Origin: Nitrospirales bacterium | GTDB lineage: Bacteria > Nitrospirota > Nitrospiria > Nitrospirales > UBA8639 | Assembly (NCBI GenBank): GCA_009377845.1 | Contig: WHTE01000005.1 | Span: 1 to 51,445, forward strand | Reading direction: 5' to 3' | DNA: 51,445 nt | Shown: positions 6,883 through 22,202 of the stretch, one piece after another | Position numbering within the stretch: the stretch's first letter is position 1 | Layout: every line of letters begins with the position of its first letter | Program-made: the position numbers and the translations under genes | Notes under the pieces: generated by a model | The model's input: only the letters and a program-made list of their open reading frames with translations | The model's database searches: none | What the model was told of the DNA's origin: nothing

Positions 6883-9405
6883 ATGAAGAGCCAATCGTAT
6901 CCCATTGACGCCGTTATTCCCAGGTTACAACAGACACTGAGGCAACACCGCATCGTGCTCCTCACCGCACAGCCGGGCGCCGGCAAAACGACACAGATCC
7001 CGCTGGCCCTTCTCCAAGAACCGTGGCTGATTCCCAAGACCATTATCATGCTGGAGCCTCGCCGGTTGGCGGCGCGCGCGGCGGCACGCCGCATGTCCGA
7101 CCTCCTGGGTGAAGCCATCGGCACCACCGTTGGATACCGGACACGGTTGGACACCAAAATCGGCCCGAACACGAAACTAGAAGTGGTGACCGAAGGCATT
7201 CTCACGAGGGTGCTTCAACACGATCCGTCTTTACAGAAGTATGGCTTGGTCATCTTTGATGAATTTCATGAACGTAGCCTGCAAGCCGATCTGGGTCTGG
7301 CCTTATGCCTGGAAACTCAAAAAGTGTTTCGAGAAGATCTTCGGCTCTTGATCATGTCGGCCACGCTGGACACTACGGCCATTTGTCAGCACTTGACACA
7401 GCCTCCCATCATCACCTGCGAGGGAAACATGTTTCCGGTCGAAACCCGCTATGTCGGGAAACCGGAGCGAAAAGATTTCGCTCCGCAAGTGGCACAAACT
7501 ATTCTTCGTCTGCTGAAGACCGACCAGGGCAACCTCCTGGTCTTTCTTCCGGGAGCCGGAGAAATCCGGCGAGTGGAGGGGCTCTTGGCGGACCTTCCGC
7601 TTGGCCCGCACACGCTGATCGCTCCGCTGTATGGTGATCTATCCGCCCAGGCCCAGGACCAGGCCATTCTGCCGCCACCTGCCGGATGGCGCAAAGTCGT
7701 CTTATCCACCAACATTGCCGAAACCAGTCTGACCATCGAAGGCATTCGTCTCGTCGTCGATACCGGTCTCATGCGTGTGCCACGCTTTGATCCGCGCAGC
7801 GGCATGAGCCGGCTGACCACCATCCAGGTCTCACAACAATCGGCCGAACAACGTCGCGGTCGAGCCGGACGTCTGGAACCCGGCCTGTGCGTGCGATTCT
7901 GGTCCGAGGCCGAGCAGCGTACCTTCACGCCGCGCACCACACCGGAAATTCTGGACGCCGACCTGACCTCTCTTGCCTTGGAATTGGCCCAATGGGGAAT
8001 TCGCAATCCGCAGGAATTGCTCTGGCTGGATCCTCCTCCTTCGGGGGCCATGGCTCAGGCGCGACAGCTCCTTCTATCCCTTGGCGCATTAGATGCCCAA
8101 GGTCACATCACCGATCACGGCCAATGCATGGCGAACCTCCCCATGCACCCGCGGCTCGCGCATATGGTCCTCAAGGGGCAGGCGTTGGGATTGGGAGCCT
8201 TGGCGTGTGATCTCGCCGCAGCCTTAAGCGAACGGGACCTGTTCAAGGGATCGATTGCACGAGAGCATGCCGATCTTCGCATCCGGTTCGATGTTCTTTA
8301 TGGAGGGTCCCATGGACAGAGAGACAAAGAATCTCCGGATAAGAGAACCATCCAACGCATTCGCCAAGCCTCTCAGGCCTGGCAACGGGCGCTTCGCATC
8401 ACCACTCCTCCGCATCTCCCCAAACAGCAGATCGATCGGATGAGCGTGCTCCTGGCCCTGGCCTATCCCGACCGGATTGCCCAACGACAATCGGATGAGG
8501 CCGGACGATATCGGCTGACCAATGGACTGAGCGCAAGATTCCATCACCCCGATCCGTTAGGGCATGAAGAATGGTTAGTCATTGCAGACCTTCACGGTGC
8601 ACCCTCGACGGCACGCATCTCTATGGCCGCCCCGATTACACATGAGGATCTGGTCACCCATTGCGCCGATCTCATACAGTCAACGGAGTCGGTGACGTGG
8701 GATGAATCGGCGCAAGCCGTCATGGCTCGTCGCCAACGCCGACTGGGAGAACTCATTCTTGAAGAAAGCCGCCTCCCCGATCCGGATCCTGAATTGGTGT
8801 TGACCGCGCTGCTCGAAGGCCTTCGAAACAAGGGCCTATCCTGTTTGCCCTGGACTCCTGCTCTCAGAAACTGGCAGGCGCGGGTCCAATTCCTCCGCCA
8901 CGTCACAGGACCGGAGTCCGCCTGGCCGGATGTCTCGGACGACACACTCCTTCATACACTGGACCAGTGGCTTGCCCCCTATCTCACCAATCTCTCCAGC
9001 CTCAATCAACTGAAACGAATCGATCTGGCATGGCCGCTTCAGGCACTTCTCTCTCCGAAACAACGACGCGCAATCGACACACTGGCGCCCACCCATCTCA
9101 CAATGCCGACGGGATCGCACATTCCCTTGGAGTATCAGTTGGGAGAGATTCCGGTTTTGGCTGTCCGTCTTCAAGAGTTATTTGGACAATGCGACACGCC
9201 CCGCCTGGTGAACGGCAGAGTCCCCGTCCTCATTCATCTGCTCTCTCCGGCCAGACGCCCCGTCCAGGTCACCCAGGACCTCACCAGTTTTTGGGCCACC
9301 GGCTACCAAGCGGTCAAAAAAGAATTAAAAGGCCGGTATCCGAAACACTCTTGGCCCGACGATCCCCTTCAAGCCCCACCCACCCGCGGCATCAAAAAAC
9401 GATAG
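6883..9405 (+). CDS. hrpB: ATP-dependent helicase HrpB (DEAH family)
   Basis: The 840-residue protein has the full DEAH helicase order. Walker A AQPGAGKTTQIP is at residues 29-40, DEFHER near 126-131 and SATLD soon after. Motif V/VI region STNIAETSLTIEGI and QQSAEQRRGRAGR follows, with the long HrpB-specific C-terminal domain behind it. The length matches HrpB (about 800-850). The cellular role of HrpB is poorly known; it is thought to act on RNA. The gene stands alone on the plus strand. The start at 6883 is the first ATG before the conserved N-terminal helix. Confidence 0.95.
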   Translation: MKSQSYPIDAVIPRLQQTLRQHRIVLLTAQPGAGKTTQIPLALLQEPWLIPKTIIMLEPRRLAARAAARRMSDLLGEAIGTTVGYRTRLDTKIGPNTKLEVVTEGILTRVLQHDPSLQKYGLVIFDEFHERSLQADLGLALCLETQKVFREDLRLLIMSATLDTTAICQHLTQPPIITCEGNMFPVETRYVGKPERKDFAPQVAQTILRLLKTDQGNLLVFLPGAGEIRRVEGLLADLPLGPHTLIAPLYGDLSAQAQDQAILPPPAGWRKVVLSTNIAETSLTIEGIRLVVDTGLMRVPRFDPRSGMSRLTTIQVSQQSAEQRRGRAGRLEPGLCVRFWSEAEQRTFTPRTTPEILDADLTSLALELAQWGIRNPQELLWLDPPPSGAMAQARQLLLSLGALDAQGHITDHGQCMANLPMHPRLAHMVLKGQALGLGALACDLAAALSERDLFKGSIAREHADLRIRFDVLYGGSHGQRDKESPDKRTIQRIRQASQAWQRALRITTPPHLPKQQIDRMSVLLALAYPDRIAQRQSDEAGRYRLTNGLSARFHHPDPLGHEEWLVIADLHGAPSTARISMAAPITHEDLVTHCADLIQSTESVTWDESAQAVMARRQRRLGELILEESRLPDPDPELVLTALLEGLRNKGLSCLPWTPALRNWQARVQFLRHVTGPESAWPDVSDDTLLHTLDQWLAPYLTNLSSLNQLKRIDLAWPLQALLSPKQRRAIDTLAPTHLTMPTGSHIPLEYQLGEIPVLAVRLQELFGQCDTPRLVNGRVPVLIHLLSPARRPVQVTQDLTSFWATGYQAVKKELKGRYPKHSWPDDPLQAPPTRGIKKR

Positions 9406-13670: not shown

Positions 13671-14120
13671 TCAGACCGGAACCCTCTCCGGTGCGGATTC
13701 ATTCAAAATCAGCCAATAGAGCCCCAGGTTTTGAACCGCTTGGGTAAACTCTTGAAAGTCCACTGGCTTTCGAACATAGCTATTGGCTCCTAATTGATAG
13801 CTCTTCACGATATCCTGCTCTTCCTTGGACGAGGTGAGGACTACCACTGGCAGGAACTTCGTCCGATCGTCAGCTCGCAGCCGTCGTAACACTTCCAGCC
13901 CATCGATCTTGGGGAGCTTGAGGTCCAACAAAATAATTTGAGGCATATGGCTCATATCACGACCGGCATGGGCTCCGGTTCCGAATAAATATTCCAACGC
14001 CTCGACACCGTCTCGCGCCACCACGACTTCATTTTTAATATTGTTTTTCTTGAGCGCCCGCATTGTCAGCTCTTCATCGTCGGGATGATCTTCCACTAAC
14101 AGAATCACTTTGTTGGTCAT
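13671..14120 (-). CDS. Receiver-only response regulator (Rcp1-like)
   Basis: The protein has 149 residues from ATG 14118-14120, which has GGAGG six bases upstream; the longer upstream frame has no such signal. It is a single CheY-like receiver: acidic pair near VEDHPDDEE, phosphoacceptor Asp in ILLDLKLP, Thr in VVVLTSS, Lys in YVRKPVD. The HPDDEE and [10 protein letters not shown] patterns match the Rcp1 group that partners phytochrome-type and related kinases. It starts 20 bp after the histidine kinase, so it is very likely the phosphate acceptor of that kinase. It has no output domain, so the signal must pass to another protein. Confidence 0.93.
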
Positions 14121-14140: not shown

Positions 14141-15877
14141 TTACAACGTAAAATGAAAGGTTGCGCCTTTGCCCACCGCTCCCTCTGCCCAAATTTGCCC
14201 GCCATGCCGTTGAATAATACGATGCACCGTCGCCAGTCCCACCCCCACACCCGGGTATTCCGTATAAGCATGAAGCCGTTGAAAGGCGCCGAAGAGTTTA
14301 TGTACATATGTCATATCAAAACCCGCCCCATTGTCTGTGACAAAATACGCCGACTGTCCTTTGTATTGCCCATGACCGAATTCAATGCGAGGGTGGGCTT
14401 GTTGCCGGGTAAACTTCCACGCGTTGCCTAATAAATTTTCTAATACCGCTCGCAGCAATTGCGGGTCAGCGGTGGCGAACACGTTATTGGCCACGAGACA
14501 TTCCACCTGCCGATCCGGTTCCATTTTTTGAAAGTCGTCAAGAACGGCCCGGACCACGGCACTCATATCAAAGGTCTGGGTATGAATTTCAGCTCGAGTC
14601 AACCGTGCCAGATTGAGCATGGCATCAATGAGCTGGGACATTCGCTGACTGGATGCCCGCACCCGGCGCAAATAACTTCGCCCTGACTCATCAAGTTTTT
14701 CATCATAGTCTTCCAGCACCGCCTGGCTAAATCCATCGATCCCGCGCAACGGGGCGCGTAAATCATGCGAGACCGAATAACTAAAGGCTTCAAGTTCTTT
14801 ATTACTGGCCTCGAGTTGTGCCGAGCGCTGGACGAGCTGGGAATTGAGTTTGCGTATATCGTCCTCCGCCCGCTTCCGCTCCGCCACTTCCCGAATGAGC
14901 TCCGCATTCGACGCGGCCAACTTTCCTGTTCGCTCCTGCACGCGCTTTTCCAGAGTATCTTTCGCCTGACGAAGGGTCTCTTCAGCCCACTGGCGCTCAT
15001 GAATTTCCAATTCCAAGTGTTTATTGGCGTCTTGCAGCGCGCCGGTTCGTTCTCGTACCTGATCTTCCAACTCGCTCGCGACCCGTCCAAGTTTTAACAC
15101 GACTAACCCGAAACCTCCCATCCATAAAAAGACCAGCATTCCCATCAATCCATAGGTCTCCTGCCAATTCATGCCCACCACCGTCTCTAACGAATCAACG
15201 GGATAGACGACCTCCAACATGCCGCCCACTTGCCCGATCCGCCAATCACGCTTTGGACTGTCGGGATGTCCGTTATGACATTCCACGCATGCTCCCTGCA
15301 TCCGATCGGCCTTCGCGAAACGGAGGGACTCACGCCCCTCGACTTGTTCAAGCCGATAAAACGGCTCATCAGGATGTTCCGTGAAAAATTCCCAGGCCTC
15401 TTGCTGAAAGGCATCGATGAGTCCGCCTGAATCTCCACCTTGGGAAAACGGATACGGACTCAGCAACCGCAATTGTTCGCCGGGTCGTCCTCCGACCAAC
15501 CGCCTGCCCATATTCCGGCTTAAGGTCTCAGGTAGAGGAATTTTCCCTTGATGGTCTCGATACCCTGCCGAGGCTTCGATTCCCTGGTCATGAAGCCGTT
15601 GAACCACTTCCACGGTGTACCATGTCCGCATTTCATTCAGCGCTCTGATATAAATATCGGCTCCCCGAAAGGCCATGGCCGTCACCATTTGGGTTTTCAA
15701 ATGGGAAATATGGAAATAAATCACGATTAAACAGAGTCCAAATAGCACGGTTAACACCAAAATCGTGTGTTTGTGGAGGATTTCCAGACCACCAAGGACC
15801 CTATTCACAAACTTTCGCCACAGTCCCAAGACCTGCAACGGCAGTGCTTTACGAAGAGTTAACTCTGATACCGGCAT
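14141..15877 (-). CDS. Membrane histidine kinase with a periplasmic heme-c DUF3365-type sensor domain
   Basis: The kinase has 578 residues: TM helix 1 (about 38-58), a periplasmic DUF3365/Tll0287-like domain (about 65-235), TM helix 2 (about 243-262), then a long coiled coil (270-362). HisKA follows, with the phospho-His in SHDLRAP (His371), then HATPase (N-box [10 protein letters not shown] 481-490, DNGAGF 515-520, GVGVGLAT 543-550). The sensor contains CVECHN at 197-202, a c-type heme attachment site. It therefore probably senses redox state, oxygen or a small ligand through heme. The cognate receiver is 20 bp downstream. The ligand is unknown. Confidence 0.92.
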
Positions 15878-16279: not shown

Positions 16280-18604
16280 TTACACGGGAGCTTGATTTTG
16301 TGCGGCAACGGCCATAAAGGCTTCTTCCGACTCTGATAAGCTGCCGGAACTGGTGTCTTCAGCCGTCGTAGTCTCCAGCTCCTGGTCTTCCTCATACGTT
16401 TGCCGCACTTCAAGAATTTCAATATCTAATTGGGCATCCGGGTACAATCTTCGCAAATCCCACTCCGTAATCCACCCGCGAACATACTCTCGCATCCGTG
16501 TGCTGGATAATTTTTCTACGGCAGAAACGGGCGGCGGCGTCCAACTATACGCCGATCCATGAAGCGAGCGGAGCCGCTCATATAAGGCATCCACCATAGA
16601 CTCATAAGGACGAACCAGTGGTTCACTTTCCTGTTCAATCAGTCGGAGACCCTGGACAGCATGTAACGCCTGGGCATAGGCTTCATCCGCCCCACCTTCC
16701 TGACATAACAGCTCAATTTTCCGGGAATCCTGTTTTGCCTCCAGAACCACACTTTGAAAATCATCCGTCAATGCCACAATGGCCCCAATCGCCGGACAGG
16801 CATATTCGGCTAACACCCCCATCCACCGCGCCACTTCCATATAGGATTTGGTCCGTTGTTTAAACGAATAACGGCCGATAATTTCAGCCTCGTCAATGAG
16901 CAAGATCCAGCCTTTGTAGCCCGCGGCCACCATCAGCCGCGAGACAAATTGGAACCGATGCAAGGCCAGTTCCTGATTGGTTAGTTTGTTGAACGTATAA
17001 GGAGCCTCGGGAGGACACCCCTGAAGATATTTATTGAGTTGACTATTACTCAATGGGTCTCCTGCCCAATACCGGATCATGCGATGACTCAGCTCAGGAT
17101 CATTGATCATCCGCTCATAGAGATATAGGGTCGCGGCAAATCGGGAATCGCATCCTTGGCCATCCCGATGCGCCCAATCATACAAATCGGCATAGTGAGG
17201 GCTCTGAAAATTCAGGTCACCGGATATTTCCGTAAGGGCATCCCCATGCTTTCCTGGAACAATGGCATGAGTGATGGCAGCACGAAAAAGGGTCACAACA
17301 TTGTAGAGGGGCGTTTCCTTACTGATCACAATAGGACTACAGACAAAGTTATTCTCTAGCGCCACCTGTTGCAGTGCTTGAAGAAGATGGGACTTCCCGC
17401 TTCCAAATCCTCCTTCAATCACGAGACCTTTGGTGGACGTGTTATGAGGAATGTGTGCTTCCATTTGTTGAAGCATCCGTCTGAATTTTCCTTCCAAATC
17501 CGGTTGGTGACTTCCAAACACCTGCACCACATCACGATTAGGCACCCCGGATCGCAAGGCTTCCATGGCACGTTGGTGCCCAACATCTCCATTGGCCATT
17601 GCCGGCCGATCAGCGTATTCCATTTTTCCGAGATCATGTTCTTCCCCAACATGCTCGAATCCAAGACGAATCAGAGCCCCTAGGGGATTTTGATACTGGC
17701 GGTCACGAACTTCATCCCAAATGCGCAATTTCAAGGCTTCGTACCGGTTGAGTCCTCGACGCCCGTCTGTCAAAAATTCCGGCGGCACGTGAACCACGAG
17801 CAAGAAACTTTCTAATTCATCCGTCCCATCGATAAACTGGCGAAGCATTTCGTACGTATCCAGCGTGGCAGAGACCCCATAATACAAGCCTTCCGGAGCA
17901 TCCGGTTTTTTACTGACCAAACATCGACTCAAGTCCAAGGAGACAACCAGCCCTGTTTTACCTGCTAACCGCAACCAACGGGATAACGAAACAAACATGT
18001 ATCGGGCATTGGTCCGCCCGATTTTTTGAAAAATGAGGGCTTCCTTGAGAGCCGAAATCTGACGAATCTCCCCGCACAGCCAAGCCTTAACCGGTTCCGT
18101 CATAAAGGGGCTTTCCGAACCGGAGTCCATTTGCCCCAAACACAATCGGATCATCGCCATACGAAATTCCTGGCACATCTGAGTATCCTGATAGATGGCC
18201 CGCTCCAACCAACTATTCAAATCCCGGCGCAATAACGGTTCGGCCCGTTCATTCATCCGGGCAACTCCAGCCATACAAAACTCCCCTTTGCCTTCTGGTA
18301 TCTGATACCCGTTTTCTTGAAGGAGTCGACGGACAAATTGTGATGCCAGGTCATCCCATGGAATTCGGCGAGCAACCTGATGAAAGAACTTATCCATCAT
18401 ATGAATCTTGGTGTCTTTGGCATCGACCGAGACGCACGCATACCCCTCATGCTGGGCCACCGTGGCTAATTGGCTTTGTACGCCCACCCGATCGCTGTCA
18501 GAAGCCGTCACCACAAACTTGACGGATGATCCTCCTTGCCCAACAAATCGTTGAAGGTATTCTTGCCGAAGCGTGTGAAACCATTCTTGAGGCCGTAAAT
18601 CCAT
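16280..18604 (-). CDS. BrxD/DUF2791-type double P-loop ATPase, paralogue 2
   Basis: The protein has 774 residues; AAGGA lies about 9 bases before ATG 18602-18604. The second half is an active-looking ATPase of the BREX ATP-binding (BrxC/BrxD, formerly DUF2791) type: RAMEALRSGVPNRDVV (345-360), Walker A GGFGSGKS (398-405), ISKETPLYNV, LSHRMIRYWAGDP and Walker B WILLIDEAE (566-574), with ALTDDFQS as a sensor segment. The first half (about 24-310) has the same strand order but no Walker A (VVTASDSDRV at 31-40), so it looks like a dead duplicate domain. The acidic tail may be flexible. It is strongly similar along its length to the next upstream gene, a tandem duplication. No BREX partner genes are in the window. 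Confidence 0.85.
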   Translation of the reverse strand: MDLRPQEWFHTLRQEYLQRFVGQGGSSVKFVVTASDSDRVGVQSQLATVAQHEGYACVSVDAKDTKIHMMDKFFHQVARRIPWDDLASQFVRRLLQENGYQIPEGKGEFCMAGVARMNERAEPLLRRDLNSWLERAIYQDTQMCQEFRMAMIRLCLGQMDSGSESPFMTEPVKAWLCGEIRQISALKEALIFQKIGRTNARYMFVSLSRWLRLAGKTGLVVSLDLSRCLVSKKPDAPEGLYYGVSATLDTYEMLRQFIDGTDELESFLLVVHVPPEFLTDGRRGLNRYEALKLRIWDEVRDRQYQNPLGALIRLGFEHVGEEHDLGKMEYADRPAMANGDVGHQRAMEALRSGVPNRDVVQVFGSHQPDLEGKFRRMLQQMEAHIPHNTSTKGLVIEGGFGSGKSHLLQALQQVALENNFVCSPIVISKETPLYNVVTLFRAAITHAIVPGKHGDALTEISGDLNFQSPHYADLYDWAHRDGQGCDSRFAATLYLYERMINDPELSHRMIRYWAGDPLSNSQLNKYLQGCPPEAPYTFNKLTNQELALHRFQFVSRLMVAAGYKGWILLIDEAEIIGRYSFKQRTKSYMEVARWMGVLAEYACPAIGAIVALTDDFQSVVLEAKQDSRKIELLCQEGGADEAYAQALHAVQGLRLIEQESEPLVRPYESMVDALYERLRSLHGSAYSWTPPPVSAVEKLSSTRMREYVRGWITEWDLRRLYPDAQLDIEILEVRQTYEEDQELETTTAEDTSSGSLSESEEAFMAVAAQNQAPV

Positions 18605-18950
18605 TGCTAGTATCCTTCACAGGTTAAAAAGAAGTGTTCATGAGCGGATGGCTCTTCAGGTGCTGACGAGATATGACAAGGAACTTTGCCCAAGACACCA
18701 CAATCGACTTGTAGTCCGGAATTCGGAGCTGGTTGAAGAGTTCCTCTGCATCGCTCTTGGCCTTTTGTCACGCTCACCTCCTGCCGTGTACGTTCGGCAC
18801 CCCAAACAACAACCACGCCCTGTAGGACACAGTAGACCGTTTGTGGCCTTGCTAGATGGGACTTGTTGCTCCCGCCTTGGAAACTGATTCCGACCCATTT
18901 TGGGACAATTTCCAAGATTTTGGGGATTTTCGAGTTTTTCAACGACCTGC
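18605..18950. other. Spacer between the two ATPase paralogues
   Basis: This gap of 346 bp in an otherwise compact operon is unusual. A minus-strand frame fills it (18942-18607, 111 codons, TTG start, no ribosome binding site) but has no family signal, and the composition looks non-coding. The segment TTTTTCAACGACCTGC (about 18935-18950) directly behind the first paralogue is reminiscent of repeat-end sequences. A separate promoter for the second paralogue could lie here. Confidence 0.4.
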
Positions 18951-21227
18951 TTAGGTGGACTCCGAGAGTGCAGGTTGAAGCATGTCTTCCTGAGAACCTT
19001 CTAATTCAATGTCCTCAGAATAGTCTTGTCGGATTTCAGTCAATTCGATTTCAACTTTTTGGGTCGGATCAAGACGATTCAGATCCCATTCGGTTATCCA
19101 GCCTTTGACATATTCACGCATCCGGGTGCTGGATAAACGTTCAATCGTGGGGACCTGAGGTGGCTCCCACCCATACGCCGCTCCATGAATGGAACGAATT
19201 TTGTGGTAGATTTCTTCCACGAGCTGGTCATAGGGACCGACTAAGGGAATGCGCTCGCATTCAATGAGTCGCATCCCTTGTTCCGCCTGTCTGGACAGCA
19301 CCAAATCGGTTTCGGATCCGGTTTCACGCAACTTTTCAGGAACTTTTTCCCGATCGCCTTTTTCATCCAGAATGGCGCTTTGAAAATCATCGGTCAGCGC
19401 CATCACCGCAGCCAATCCGGATTTATAGCCGAGATCCGCAAAACTGGAGGCTTCCAGGCGGCCCAGCCACCGGGCTAATTCCGCGTAGGATTGTGCTCGC
19501 TGTTTAAAGGAATATCGGCCGATAATTTCCGCCTCATCGATCAGCAGAATCCAACCGGAGTATCCCGCCGCGATCATGAGTCGTGAGACAAATTTAAACC
19601 GTTGCAACGCCATTTCCATGGGCGAGATCCGTTCAAACCGGTAGGAGACATTGGAGTCACAGGATTTGAGATACCGCTTTATTTCAGCATCGGTCAATGG
19701 ATCCCCTGCCCAAAATCGAATCATTCGATGACTCAGCTCCGGGTCATTCACCATCCGTTCATACAGAAACACCGTGGCCGCAAACCGCCCATCAATTTCA
19801 CCACCTTGGCGATGAACCCATTCATAGAAATCAGCATATTGTGGACTCTTGAAATTTAAATCCGCTGCGACCTCCGCCAGGGCATCTCCTCGCTTTTGCG
19901 GGATATCCGCAGATCCGATCGCTGCCCGAAACATCAACACCGGGCTATAGAGGGGCGTTTCTTTACTAATCACAACCTTACTGCATATAAACCTGGAGTC
20001 CAAAGCCATGTGCCTCAGGGACTCCAGTAAATGGGATTTTCCGGTCCCAAAGCCTCCTTCAATCAGCATTCCCTTTGTGGTCCAGCCTTTATGAATACTG
20101 GCCTGAGCATCTTGTAACATCTGCTGAAACTTTGACTTGACTGTCGGCTGAGGACATCCCAGTGCTTTGACGGCCCCCGGACTCGGCACTCCCGCCCGCA
20201 AGGATTCGATGACGCGTTGATGATGCACATCATCCTTGCGATTTCCTACTCTGGCCAGTAAACGGCTCTCATCAAACTTTTCGGTCTGGTCCGTGAGCCG
20301 GACCATCGGCGCAAAAGGATTTTGGCGTGTTTTATCCCGCACATCGTCCCAGATTCGAAGCTTCAAGGCTTCATAACGATTCAGCCCCAAGCGTTGGTCA
20401 GAGAGAAAGGCTTGTGAGGTCACAACTACCACCAATAGCCCTTCGATCTCGTCGCTGCCATCGATAAATTGCCTCAACATCTCATACGCATCCATCACGG
20501 CCGAGGGTGAATAGCTCAGGGAAGATGACCTGGGTTTCTTGCCGCCCATAAAGGCCGAAATATCGATGGTCAACACCACGCCGGGCTTCCCCAACAGGCG
20601 GATCCAATGAGCAAAGGACGCAATGAGGTCACGCGCATTGCTGCGATTCACCTTTTCAAAAATCAATAATTTTTTGAGAGCGGACATTTGCTTCAACTCT
20701 CCTCGAAGCCAGGCCTTTATCGCTGCCGCCTCTTTGGACTGGCTATCGGGTGATTCTAATTGGGCTAAACACAACTGGATCATGGCTAAGCGAAATTCCC
20801 GGCTCATATGGAAATCCTGAAATAGCGTGCCTTCCAACCATGAATTGATATCCCGCTGAATCGTCGCTTCATCGCAACCATTGAGGGAGGACAGACTCGA
20901 CCAGCGACACTCCTCCCGTCGTTCGGGTATCCGCCGTTGATTATCTTTGAGGAGCTTTTTCACGTAATCAAACGCCAGAGCATCCCAATCGATTTGTCTG
21001 GCCATTTCCCGGAACAGGAGATCAATGAGTTGGACCTTCGTACGACGAGCGTCGGCCTCGATCGTGACAAAACCTTCCTCTCGCGACAGCTCCCCCACTC
21101 CATCGGTCACCGGCTTGGTATCCTGATTTTCCTCCACGACCGCAAATTTGACGGCCGATCCTCCTCGACGGATAAATCCTTGAAGATAGGCTGTTTTGAG
21201 AACGTTCAACCATTCCTGTGGAGACAT
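18951..21227 (-). CDS. BrxD/DUF2791-type double P-loop ATPase, paralogue 1
   Basis: The protein has 758 residues from an ATG with GAGGGA upstream. Its architecture is that of paralogue 2: a degenerate first ATPase half (VKFAVVEENQDTKPVTDG at 27-44 where a P-loop would be, but a Walker-B-like strand GVVLTIDIS at 216-224), then an intact second half. The intact half has RVIESLRAGVPSPGAV, Walker A GGFGTGKS (391-398), SKETPLYSPV, ELSHRMIRFWAGDPL and Walker B WILLIDEAE. By eye the two proteins are roughly 60% identical over the active ATPase region and share the C-terminal block SSTRMREYV.GWITEWDL. The gene lies 81 bp behind the partner gene. In BREX such proteins act with PglZ and helicases in phage defence; none is present here, so the role is open. 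Confidence 0.85.
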   Translation of the reverse strand: MSPQEWLNVLKTAYLQGFIRRGGSAVKFAVVEENQDTKPVTDGVGELSREEGFVTIEADARRTKVQLIDLLFREMARQIDWDALAFDYVKKLLKDNQRRIPERREECRWSSLSSLNGCDEATIQRDINSWLEGTLFQDFHMSREFRLAMIQLCLAQLESPDSQSKEAAAIKAWLRGELKQMSALKKLLIFEKVNRSNARDLIASFAHWIRLLGKPGVVLTIDISAFMGGKKPRSSSLSYSPSAVMDAYEMLRQFIDGSDEIEGLLVVVVTSQAFLSDQRLGLNRYEALKLRIWDDVRDKTRQNPFAPMVRLTDQTEKFDESRLLARVGNRKDDVHHQRVIESLRAGVPSPGAVKALGCPQPTVKSKFQQMLQDAQASIHKGWTTKGMLIEGGFGTGKSHLLESLRHMALDSRFICSKVVISKETPLYSPVLMFRAAIGSADIPQKRGDALAEVAADLNFKSPQYADFYEWVHRQGGEIDGRFAATVFLYERMVNDPELSHRMIRFWAGDPLTDAEIKRYLKSCDSNVSYRFERISPMEMALQRFKFVSRLMIAAGYSGWILLIDEAEIIGRYSFKQRAQSYAELARWLGRLEASSFADLGYKSGLAAVMALTDDFQSAILDEKGDREKVPEKLRETGSETDLVLSRQAEQGMRLIECERIPLVGPYDQLVEEIYHKIRSIHGAAYGWEPPQVPTIERLSSTRMREYVKGWITEWDLNRLDPTQKVEIELTEIRQDYSEDIELEGSQEDMLQPALSEST

Positions 21228-21308
21228 AATTTTTCCCTCAATATCCTTTTACTCTGGTTCGTCTTCTCGGCTCCCCTTAGGGAAACTTAAATAACGACAC
21301 TGGTCTGC

Positions 21309-22202
21309 TTATCCCGCCTGAACAAAGGAAATTCCATAATACGTTTTCTCCCGTCCTCCTTGCGCAATCACGGTTAATGTTCTCGTGGCATCCCGCACTC
21401 CAGTGCTGGCATGGAAGTTCGCCCGATGATTGTTTTTGGTCGTAATGGTTCCACTTTTATCCAGCAAATAGACATCCCGGCCAAACTCCTGCCTGGTGTA
21501 TTCACTGGCCTGCCACGGAAGGAGCGTGAGAAGTTGGTACAGTTCCAAGAGGGGAATCACCGTCCCTTTTCCGATCAGGTGCTTCCCTCGACCTGCCACC
21601 ACAATGGAATAGGCCGTAAATACCATCTCGAGAAACGTGTGCGGCTTAAATCGTAGAGGTCTATTTTGAACTTCTTTTAAACGCCGGACCAAGACCGAGG
21701 GGCGTAGCCGATTCTCTCGCATTCGGTCAATCGCGACCGCACGTTCTTTGTGTAAGATTCGCAATAAAACCGGATAGGAAAACAAATAGCCATCATGTTC
21801 ATAGAGATTGACACCCATTTGTTGGGCGGTAGTGAGAAGTTCCTGACGAAAAGCTTTTCCCGCAAGATAATCGGCTTCATCAAAATTCAGCCGTTCTTGG
21901 GTTTTTACAAAGTCACAGCCCAAACTCAGCGTCACCTCCTTGCCTTCCTCCAATAATTTACGGAGCTTGACCAGATCGCCCACTTTTGCTGCATCTTTAA
22001 TCTTTTTAAACGACGCCATCACCTGCTTCGTCGTTTTCACTAAATCCCCGGCTTGCTCTTCAATGTCAGCCAGTGCCTGCTCCAAATTGACGTTTTTCGA
22101 GGCAACCTTGGAAGGAGTGGCGGCATCCGGCAATTCAAGCACACCCGTTGCCGATGTCGAACCATAGGCTTCTGACGTATTGTCAAATCCTTCGGCACTC
22201 AT
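21309..22202 (-). CDS. Unknown partner protein of the tandem ATPase operon
   Basis: The protein has 297 residues if it starts at ATG 22200-22202 (MSAEGFDNTSEAYG); a 31-residue longer form is possible, and neither has an excellent ribosome binding site. The N-terminal 35 residues look disordered and Ser/Thr-rich. Residues of about 40-95 form a likely coiled coil (LEQALADIEEQAGDLVKTT and following). The C-terminal part is globular, with conserved-looking segments KPHTFLEMVFTAYSIVV and RDATRTLTVIAQGG. No signal peptide or membrane helix is seen. It is first in the operon with the two ATPases, so it is probably a complex subunit. No family is recognised. Confidence 0.7.
   Translation of the reverse strand: MSAEGFDNTSEAYGSTSATGVLELPDAATPSKVASKNVNLEQALADIEEQAGDLVKTTKQVMASFKKIKDAAKVGDLVKLRKLLEEGKEVTLSLGCDFVKTQERLNFDEADYLAGKAFRQELLTTAQQMGVNLYEHDGYLFSYPVLLRILHKERAVAIDRMRENRLRPSVLVRRLKEVQNRPLRFKPHTFLEMVFTAYSIVVAGRGKHLIGKGTVIPLLELYQLLTLLPWQASEYTRQEFGRDVYLLDKSGTITTKNNHRANFHASTGVRDATRTLTVIAQGGREKTYYGISFVQAG

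Follow-up and report, generated by a model that had tools for sequence, protein, structure and literature searches.

An operon of a coiled-coil protein and two tandem BrxD-like ATPases in a Nitrospirales bacterium: a possible effector-less derivative of a conserved core

In type 2 BREX, the AAA+ ATPase BrxD is of the ORC-Cdc6 type and, although its role is uncharacterised, was suggested to load BrxHI (PMC12839542). Shango (SngABC) is a small operon as well, in which a single BrxD-like ATPase (SngB) is combined with the 688-aa (amino acids) TerB-type protein SngA and the helicase SngC. Here, an operon of a Nitrospirales bacterium (assembly GCA_009377845.1) is described, which encodes a coiled-coil protein (CC) followed by two tandem BrxD-like ATPases (A1 and A2; Table 1). 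It lies on positions 1 to 51,445 of contig WHTE01000005.1, and this whole stretch of 51,445 nucleotides is referred to as the window. The operon is interpreted as a lineage-specific derivative of a core of CC and two BrxD-like ORC/Cdc6-type AAA+ proteins, which would be of the helicase-loader type, would have lost its effector and was probably repurposed, a reading for which we see about as much reason to believe as to doubt.

Domain structure of the operon and comparison with BREX and Shango

A1 and A2 are paralogous along their entire length (50% identity). The BrxC_BrxD family (PF10923) matches both in several stretches across both halves, with 109 and 114 bits for the two ATPases at a gathering score of 22.2, which places them in the BrxC/BrxD family. 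The Walker A motif GGFG(S/T)GKSH and the sequence WILLIDEAE are confined to the C-terminal halves. In the N-terminal halves, the flanking signatures of the family are kept (GGSxVKF at the P-loop site and RYEALKLRIWD near the end) and the P-loop is gone. Judged from these motifs, A1 and A2 are each a fusion of two BrxD-like halves, of which the first lacks the P-loop and the second is active. All of this agrees with a sequence-only reading of the window, which had described full-length BrxD-type paralogues with one active half each and a coiled-coil protein as first gene. The AlphaFold2 model of A1 (pLDDT, the predicted local distance difference test, 86.5; pTM, the predicted template modelling score, 0.86) has two AAA+ domains in one chain. 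Its better fold matches are the P-loop/AAA+ structures RdrA (of RADAR), HslU and ORC, none of them with E <0.001.

The start codon of CC is the ATG at 22202 (297 aa), a longer ORF (open reading frame) of 328 aa being a TTG extension. The coiled coil is backed by an AlphaFold2 model (pLDDT 82) with helices at residues 40-74 and 77-104. Residues 1-36 are disordered, and the model consists of a long hairpin of helices, a small part rich in beta structure, four helices and a beta region at the C-terminus. From the order of these structural elements, the C-terminus is read as winged-helix-like. A fold search of CC against PDB and viral models yielded no relative at E <0.001, and sequence matches to designed helical bundles were dismissed as coiled-coil artefacts.

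In comparison with four relatives, the ratio of nonsynonymous to synonymous substitution rates (dN/dS) was 0.04-0.07 for CC, 0.04-0.07 for A1 and 0.09-0.10 for A2, revealing strong purifying selection on all three genes. It is low in both halves of the ATPases and lowest in the live half of A1 (0.02-0.04). As both halves are constrained, the dead halves are not decaying and are retained, presumably for structure or binding. A chance arrangement is excluded by these values (0.04-0.10 for the three genes) together with the same-order homologues in many genomes.

Compared with the BrxD-BrxHI dyad, with which it shares a BrxD-family AAA+ ATPase, the operon differs by its two ATPases, by CC and by the lack of PglZ, PglX, BrxC, PglW and a helicase. 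That it stands without any BREX partner, as had been proposed, was corroborated: a search of the entire genome (93% complete) for PglZ (PF08665), which was positive in two control genomes, gave no match, and neither BrxC nor a PglX/BrxX methyltransferase was found among the window proteins scanned with Pfam (the largest and nearest ORFs). The scores for the BrxD equivalog NF033438 were 95.5 and 76.7 bits, at a cut-off of 350. BREX, including a BREX remnant, was rejected due to the missing PglZ and this score. Shango was rejected as well, because the first gene is unrelated (no TerB-type SngA), there are two ATPases and the operon has no helicase, neither of the SngC type nor any other. CC showed no match to SngA by hidden Markov model search, and the profile comparison of CC with the SngA of Shango locus L128 gave a probability of 0.3%. 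A match of the ATPases to a described system with defined partners, which would have spoken against the sequence-only reading, was not obtained.

Table 1. Features of the operon and of the adjoining two-component genes (positions in the window).
Feature	Position	Strand	Description and evidence
CC	21309..22202	-	297-aa coiled-coil protein; first gene of the operon; ORF, alignment of 23 homologues, model
A1	18951..21227	-	758-aa tandem BrxD-like AAA+ protein; PF10923 E 7e-33
A1 N-half	20223..21227	-	BrxD-like domain without P-loop; corresponds to the separate AN gene of other phyla
A1 Walker A GGFGTGKS	20034..20057	-	residues 391-398
A1 Walker B ILLIDE	19533..19550	-	residues 560-565
A2	16280..18604	-	774-aa tandem BrxD-like AAA+ protein, paralogue of A1; PF10923 E 3e-31
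A2 N-half	17585..18604	-	BrxD-like domain without P-loop
A2 Walker A GGFGSGKS	17390..17413	-	residues 398-405
A2 Walker B ILLIDE	16889..16906	-	residues 567-572
Histidine kinase	14141..15877	-	Tll0287-like sensor and CVECH motif; Pfam, motif, adjacency; conserved neighbour
Response regulator	13671..14120	-	single-domain; Pfam, adjacency; conserved neighbour

The conserved core and its effectors in other genomes

Relatives of the operon were collected by a genome scan and profile searches; the genomes are mostly metagenome-assembled and their ORFs were called mechanically. They were found in Nitrospirota, Desulfobacterota-type, Bacillota-type, Acetobacteraceae and CSSED10-310 genomes. In total, 64 CC loci were counted, some of which are one locus fetched twice. 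In 61 of them, two BrxD-like genes, AN and AC, or an AN-AC fusion come after CC on its strand. The trio is genuinely conserved, a point that the sequence-only reading had proposed to check. The three exceptions are L067, where the contig ends within AN, L110, where AN was not called, and L115, where CC stands alone and an in-frame stop is reported. The window follows the same pattern, with CC, A1 and A2 in this order and each ATPase being AN and AC fused.

Outside the window's lineage, AN (~320-440 aa) and AC (~400-480 aa) are mostly separate genes. An AN-AC fusion followed by its own SNF2 gene (L030) probably arose independently. The P-loop is present in the AC of every pair, two of them having A in place of the first G, and is missing from AN in 21 of the 30 split pairs. 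AN genes without P-loop belong to the SNF2-type group, the Acetobacteraceae, genus g2 and the CRISPR-embedded pair L106/L107, and those with P-loop to L108, L109, L111-L114 and L122-L124. On these motifs, the combination of one dead and one live ATPase was apparently reached in more than one branch. CC and the BrxD-like ATPase pair form a conserved three-protein core that apparently has no name so far, and no paper describing it was found in the open-licence literature. A mobile element was rejected, as a protein search of phage and plasmid records gave no match for the ATPase and viral contigs none for CC.

The idea of the three genes as a complete system was not supported: outside the window's lineage, the core usually has a helicase of superfamily 2 (SF2) or another effector next door. 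Since such an effector is the usual neighbour elsewhere, the version in the window looks like an effector-less derivative. In the SNF2-type loci, the core mostly continues with a conserved 188-aa protein and then an SNF2 helicase of ~580-750 aa. The family of the 188-aa protein (L033:4425-4991 and homologues), located between AC and SNF2, reaches a mean column identity of 80% over ten loci and has no family match; the protein is probably a dedicated adaptor. The SNF2 protein that was scanned, from the Syntrophobacterales locus L033, contains an SNF2 and a C-terminal Mrr_cat nuclease domain. In this, it resembles ZorD of Zorya, its best PADLOC match, but further Zorya genes were not noticed next to it, its partners being CC, two AAA+ proteins and the 188-aa protein. 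A ZorD-like SNF2-Mrr protein is absent from the window.

In L122 and L124, the core is followed by a DEAD helicase (1109 or 1955 aa) closest to BrxHI and SngC, and only beside these distant relatives was an SngC-like helicase found; L123 has a similar large ORF after the core. A divergently transcribed helicase-like gene accompanies L108, L109, L110 and L111, of which the one scanned (L108) is ResIII/XPB-like. This helicase matches PbeA models, but PbeABCD was rejected, as PbeB-D, a small protein, an ABC ATPase and a DndE-like protein (PMC10853773), are unlike the CC and BrxD types. In L112:1155-7372, CC, AN and AC are followed by the BREX-type AAA+ factor BrxL, with nucleotidyltransferase-like ORFs alongside. 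In two Bacillota-type CRISPR-Cas loci of type I, the trio is located between cas3 and cas1 (L106:4709-10263 and L107:6812-12354). The latter is of type I-D, with Csc2, Cas4 and an array of 38 repeats (L107:1-3100), whereas no cas genes are present near the trio in the window. To our knowledge, neither is a BrxD-like pair known as a CRISPR accessory nor does the trio belong to the Cas components known so far. Furthermore, some core loci adjoin AbiE, Dpd-like or DUF499/DUF1156/PLD-helicase genes. Circumstantially, these neighbours point to a defence origin of the core.

Two side observations concern these neighbourhoods. In L036:2-9109, an SNF2-type module lies directly downstream of a locus of a DUF1156 methyltransferase and a PLD-type helicase, a defence cluster similar to BREX-related ones. 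In two g2 genomes (L069:6252-9445 and the same place in L071), a Ski2-like helicase is apparently split into two genes in reversed order, the Helicase_C-DSHCT gene being upstream of the DEAD gene, and these are divergent from the CC-AN-AC operon.

Fusion, duplication and apparent effector loss in the window's lineage

The genera sampled are the window's own (g1) and g2, g3, g5 and g6, and the window's family is referred to as f1. In the tree, the fused Nitrospirales-type ATPases form a single clade (support 100/100), the fusion having occurred once in this lineage, and within the clade the A1/A2 pair and a third paralogue, A3, are later duplicates; the A1/A2 duplication predates the split of the sampled genera. 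A3 is also a tandem BrxD-like protein (854 aa, with an N-terminal extension) and is encoded on another contig (C5) of the window's genome (L045:8178-10742). It is kept in g1 and g5, including g5 genomes without CC, so that A3 occurs on its own, whereas A1 and A2 accompany CC. Conserved beside A3 are, among others, a transporter-like protein and, in g1, one that matches Trans_reg_dom.

The trio was found in all four sampled g1 genomes, and in g3, g6 and one genome of g5, CC is accompanied by one or two fused ATPases. The locus is syntenic in four genera of one family, with conserved neighbours including a short-chain dehydrogenase beside CC. For this range, the vertical inheritance in Nitrospirota considered in the sequence-only reading is supported; it does not extend to the phylum, as CC was found in only 12 of 296 Nitrospirota genomes. 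The core was found neither in sampled members of the sister family nor in several genera of its own family.

The 188-aa family was not found in 9 of 10 f1 genomes searched, including the complete G253, with positive controls; within f1, it was present only in G229 (genus g2). The genomes in which it was not found include that of the window and those of the three congeners sampled, of which one is complete. The operon has no 188-aa or SNF2 genes and so does not belong to the SNF2 variant of the core. A full-length match to the cognate SNF2 protein was not obtained in the window's genome, the best matches being partial and located in larger proteins of ~1180-1190 aa on other contigs. The cognate effector seems to have been lost from the core in this lineage.

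Elsewhere in the same genome (contig C3, L073:1958-7278), macro-domain-like and DarT-like proteins, recognised by eye, are encoded beside a 1192-aa SNF2 protein; this may be a toxin-antitoxin or defence locus.

The operon lies among housekeeping genes (BipA, HrpB, a sigma factor and transporters) and not in a defence island. The DEAH-type helicase HrpB at 6883-9405, ~7 kb away, corrects the earlier statement that the window has no helicase. PADLOC matched mad2, mad3, mad8, MzaA and AriA in the window with one protein each, which is taken as generic ATPase or regulator similarity and not as defence genes. Between 13400 and 22600, promoter-like sites are not commoner than in shuffled sequences (7 vs 8.7) and terminator-like sites slightly commoner (13 vs 9.3), and an Rfam search gave no match. 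The gaps between A1 and A2 and between A2 and the kinase amount to 346 and 402 bp (base pairs). A 111-aa ORF inside the former was rejected as a conserved gene; the gap differs in length between relatives.

A kinase, and a single-domain response regulator as far as the contig permits, follows every fused Nitrospirales-type locus whose contig extends that far. In the single-copy forms L024, L025 and L027, the spacing between ATPase and kinase is 8-24 bp. The CxxCH motif is present in the kinases of the window (CVECH) and of relatives and is missing from those of L065 and L066. The kinase beside the response regulator is possibly a haem redox sensor, and it is linked to the trio by position only.

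Possible function and competing explanations

Because of the comparison with ORC/Cdc6-type AAA+ proteins and the suggestion made for BrxD (PMC12839542), the core can be pictured as an asymmetric DNA clamp or ring that loads a motor. CC would use its coiled coil and C-terminal domain to anchor the ATPases, either to one another or to DNA. The asymmetric ring or clamp would be built from dead and live AAA+ domains, with ATP hydrolysed by the live ones, and this assembly would load or license a helicase on recognised DNA. In the defence-like modules of other bacteria, the core adjoins an exchangeable DNA motor or nuclease, which is mostly an SF2 helicase. Within the window's lineage, the ATPase pair became a single chain and was duplicated (A1, A2 and the detached A3); the 188-aa protein and the SNF2 helicase-nuclease would have been lost, and the locus remained fixed beside the haem-type kinase and response regulator. 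Its present role is most likely that of an ATP-driven DNA-binding or remodelling assembly without a nuclease of its own, possibly tuned by the two-component pair.

Several points weigh against this reading. A helicase-loader role is hypothetical even for BrxD, and DNA binding by CC, which has no structural relative, is a guess. Chromosomal SNF2 proteins of the genome could act in trans, and the effector would then not truly be lost. The adjacency of the kinase could be inherited synteny, as the other flank is conserved too, and the 346- and 402-bp gaps imply that the kinase may be a separate transcript. More tentatively, and with some doubt, the core can be viewed as a general platform that loads or licenses exchangeable defence helicases (SNF2-Mrr, Lhr-like, XPB-like, Cas3). 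Here, this platform would have been domesticated into an AAA+ machine that is fused, duplicated, devoid of a helicase and controlled by a two-component pair.

Unlikely, but fitting the intact Walker motifs, is a working anti-phage or anti-plasmid defence, in which CC and the ATPases would detect foreign DNA and bring in a helicase or nuclease whose gene lies at another site of the genome. The unlinked SNF2 proteins could provide such a partner, and relatives occur beside Mrr nucleases, within CRISPR operons and close to defence genes (AbiE, BREX-related and others). Such a role is at odds with a locus that is fixed and syntenic across four genera, has housekeeping flanks and is under strong purifying selection, and whose ATPase and CC were not found in phage or plasmid records and viral contigs, respectively.

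The same low dN/dS and synteny, with presence in all four genus genomes searched, would suit a housekeeping machine for chromosome maintenance or stress response under the control of the adjacent redox or haem kinase, which might, e.g., load a general repair helicase when oxygen or nitrosative stress occurs. The kinase adjoins the fused loci wherever the contig extends and has CxxCH in the window and relatives. This explanation is also regarded as improbable, since the response regulator has no output domain, CxxCH is missing from the L065 and L066 kinases, and the absence from the sampled sister family and several genera of the own family means that the machine is not essential in general. 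Finally, a decayed type 2 BREX or Shango remnant, although BrxD and SngB profiles match both ATPases, is very improbable in a genome without PglZ, with a CC unrelated to SngA, scores far below the BrxD cut-off (95 and 77 vs 350 bits) and the intact core being a family of its own in many genomes.

Within this family, CC and the ATPase pair remain combined while the motor changes, also in two CRISPR operons with cas3 next door; it represents a natural series and makes the loader idea directly testable. The pairs of one dead and one live ATPase offer a handle on the working of asymmetric AAA+ assemblies. If the derivative reading of the operon is true, the window's lineage would show a defence-type machine that lost its effector and was kept for another use.

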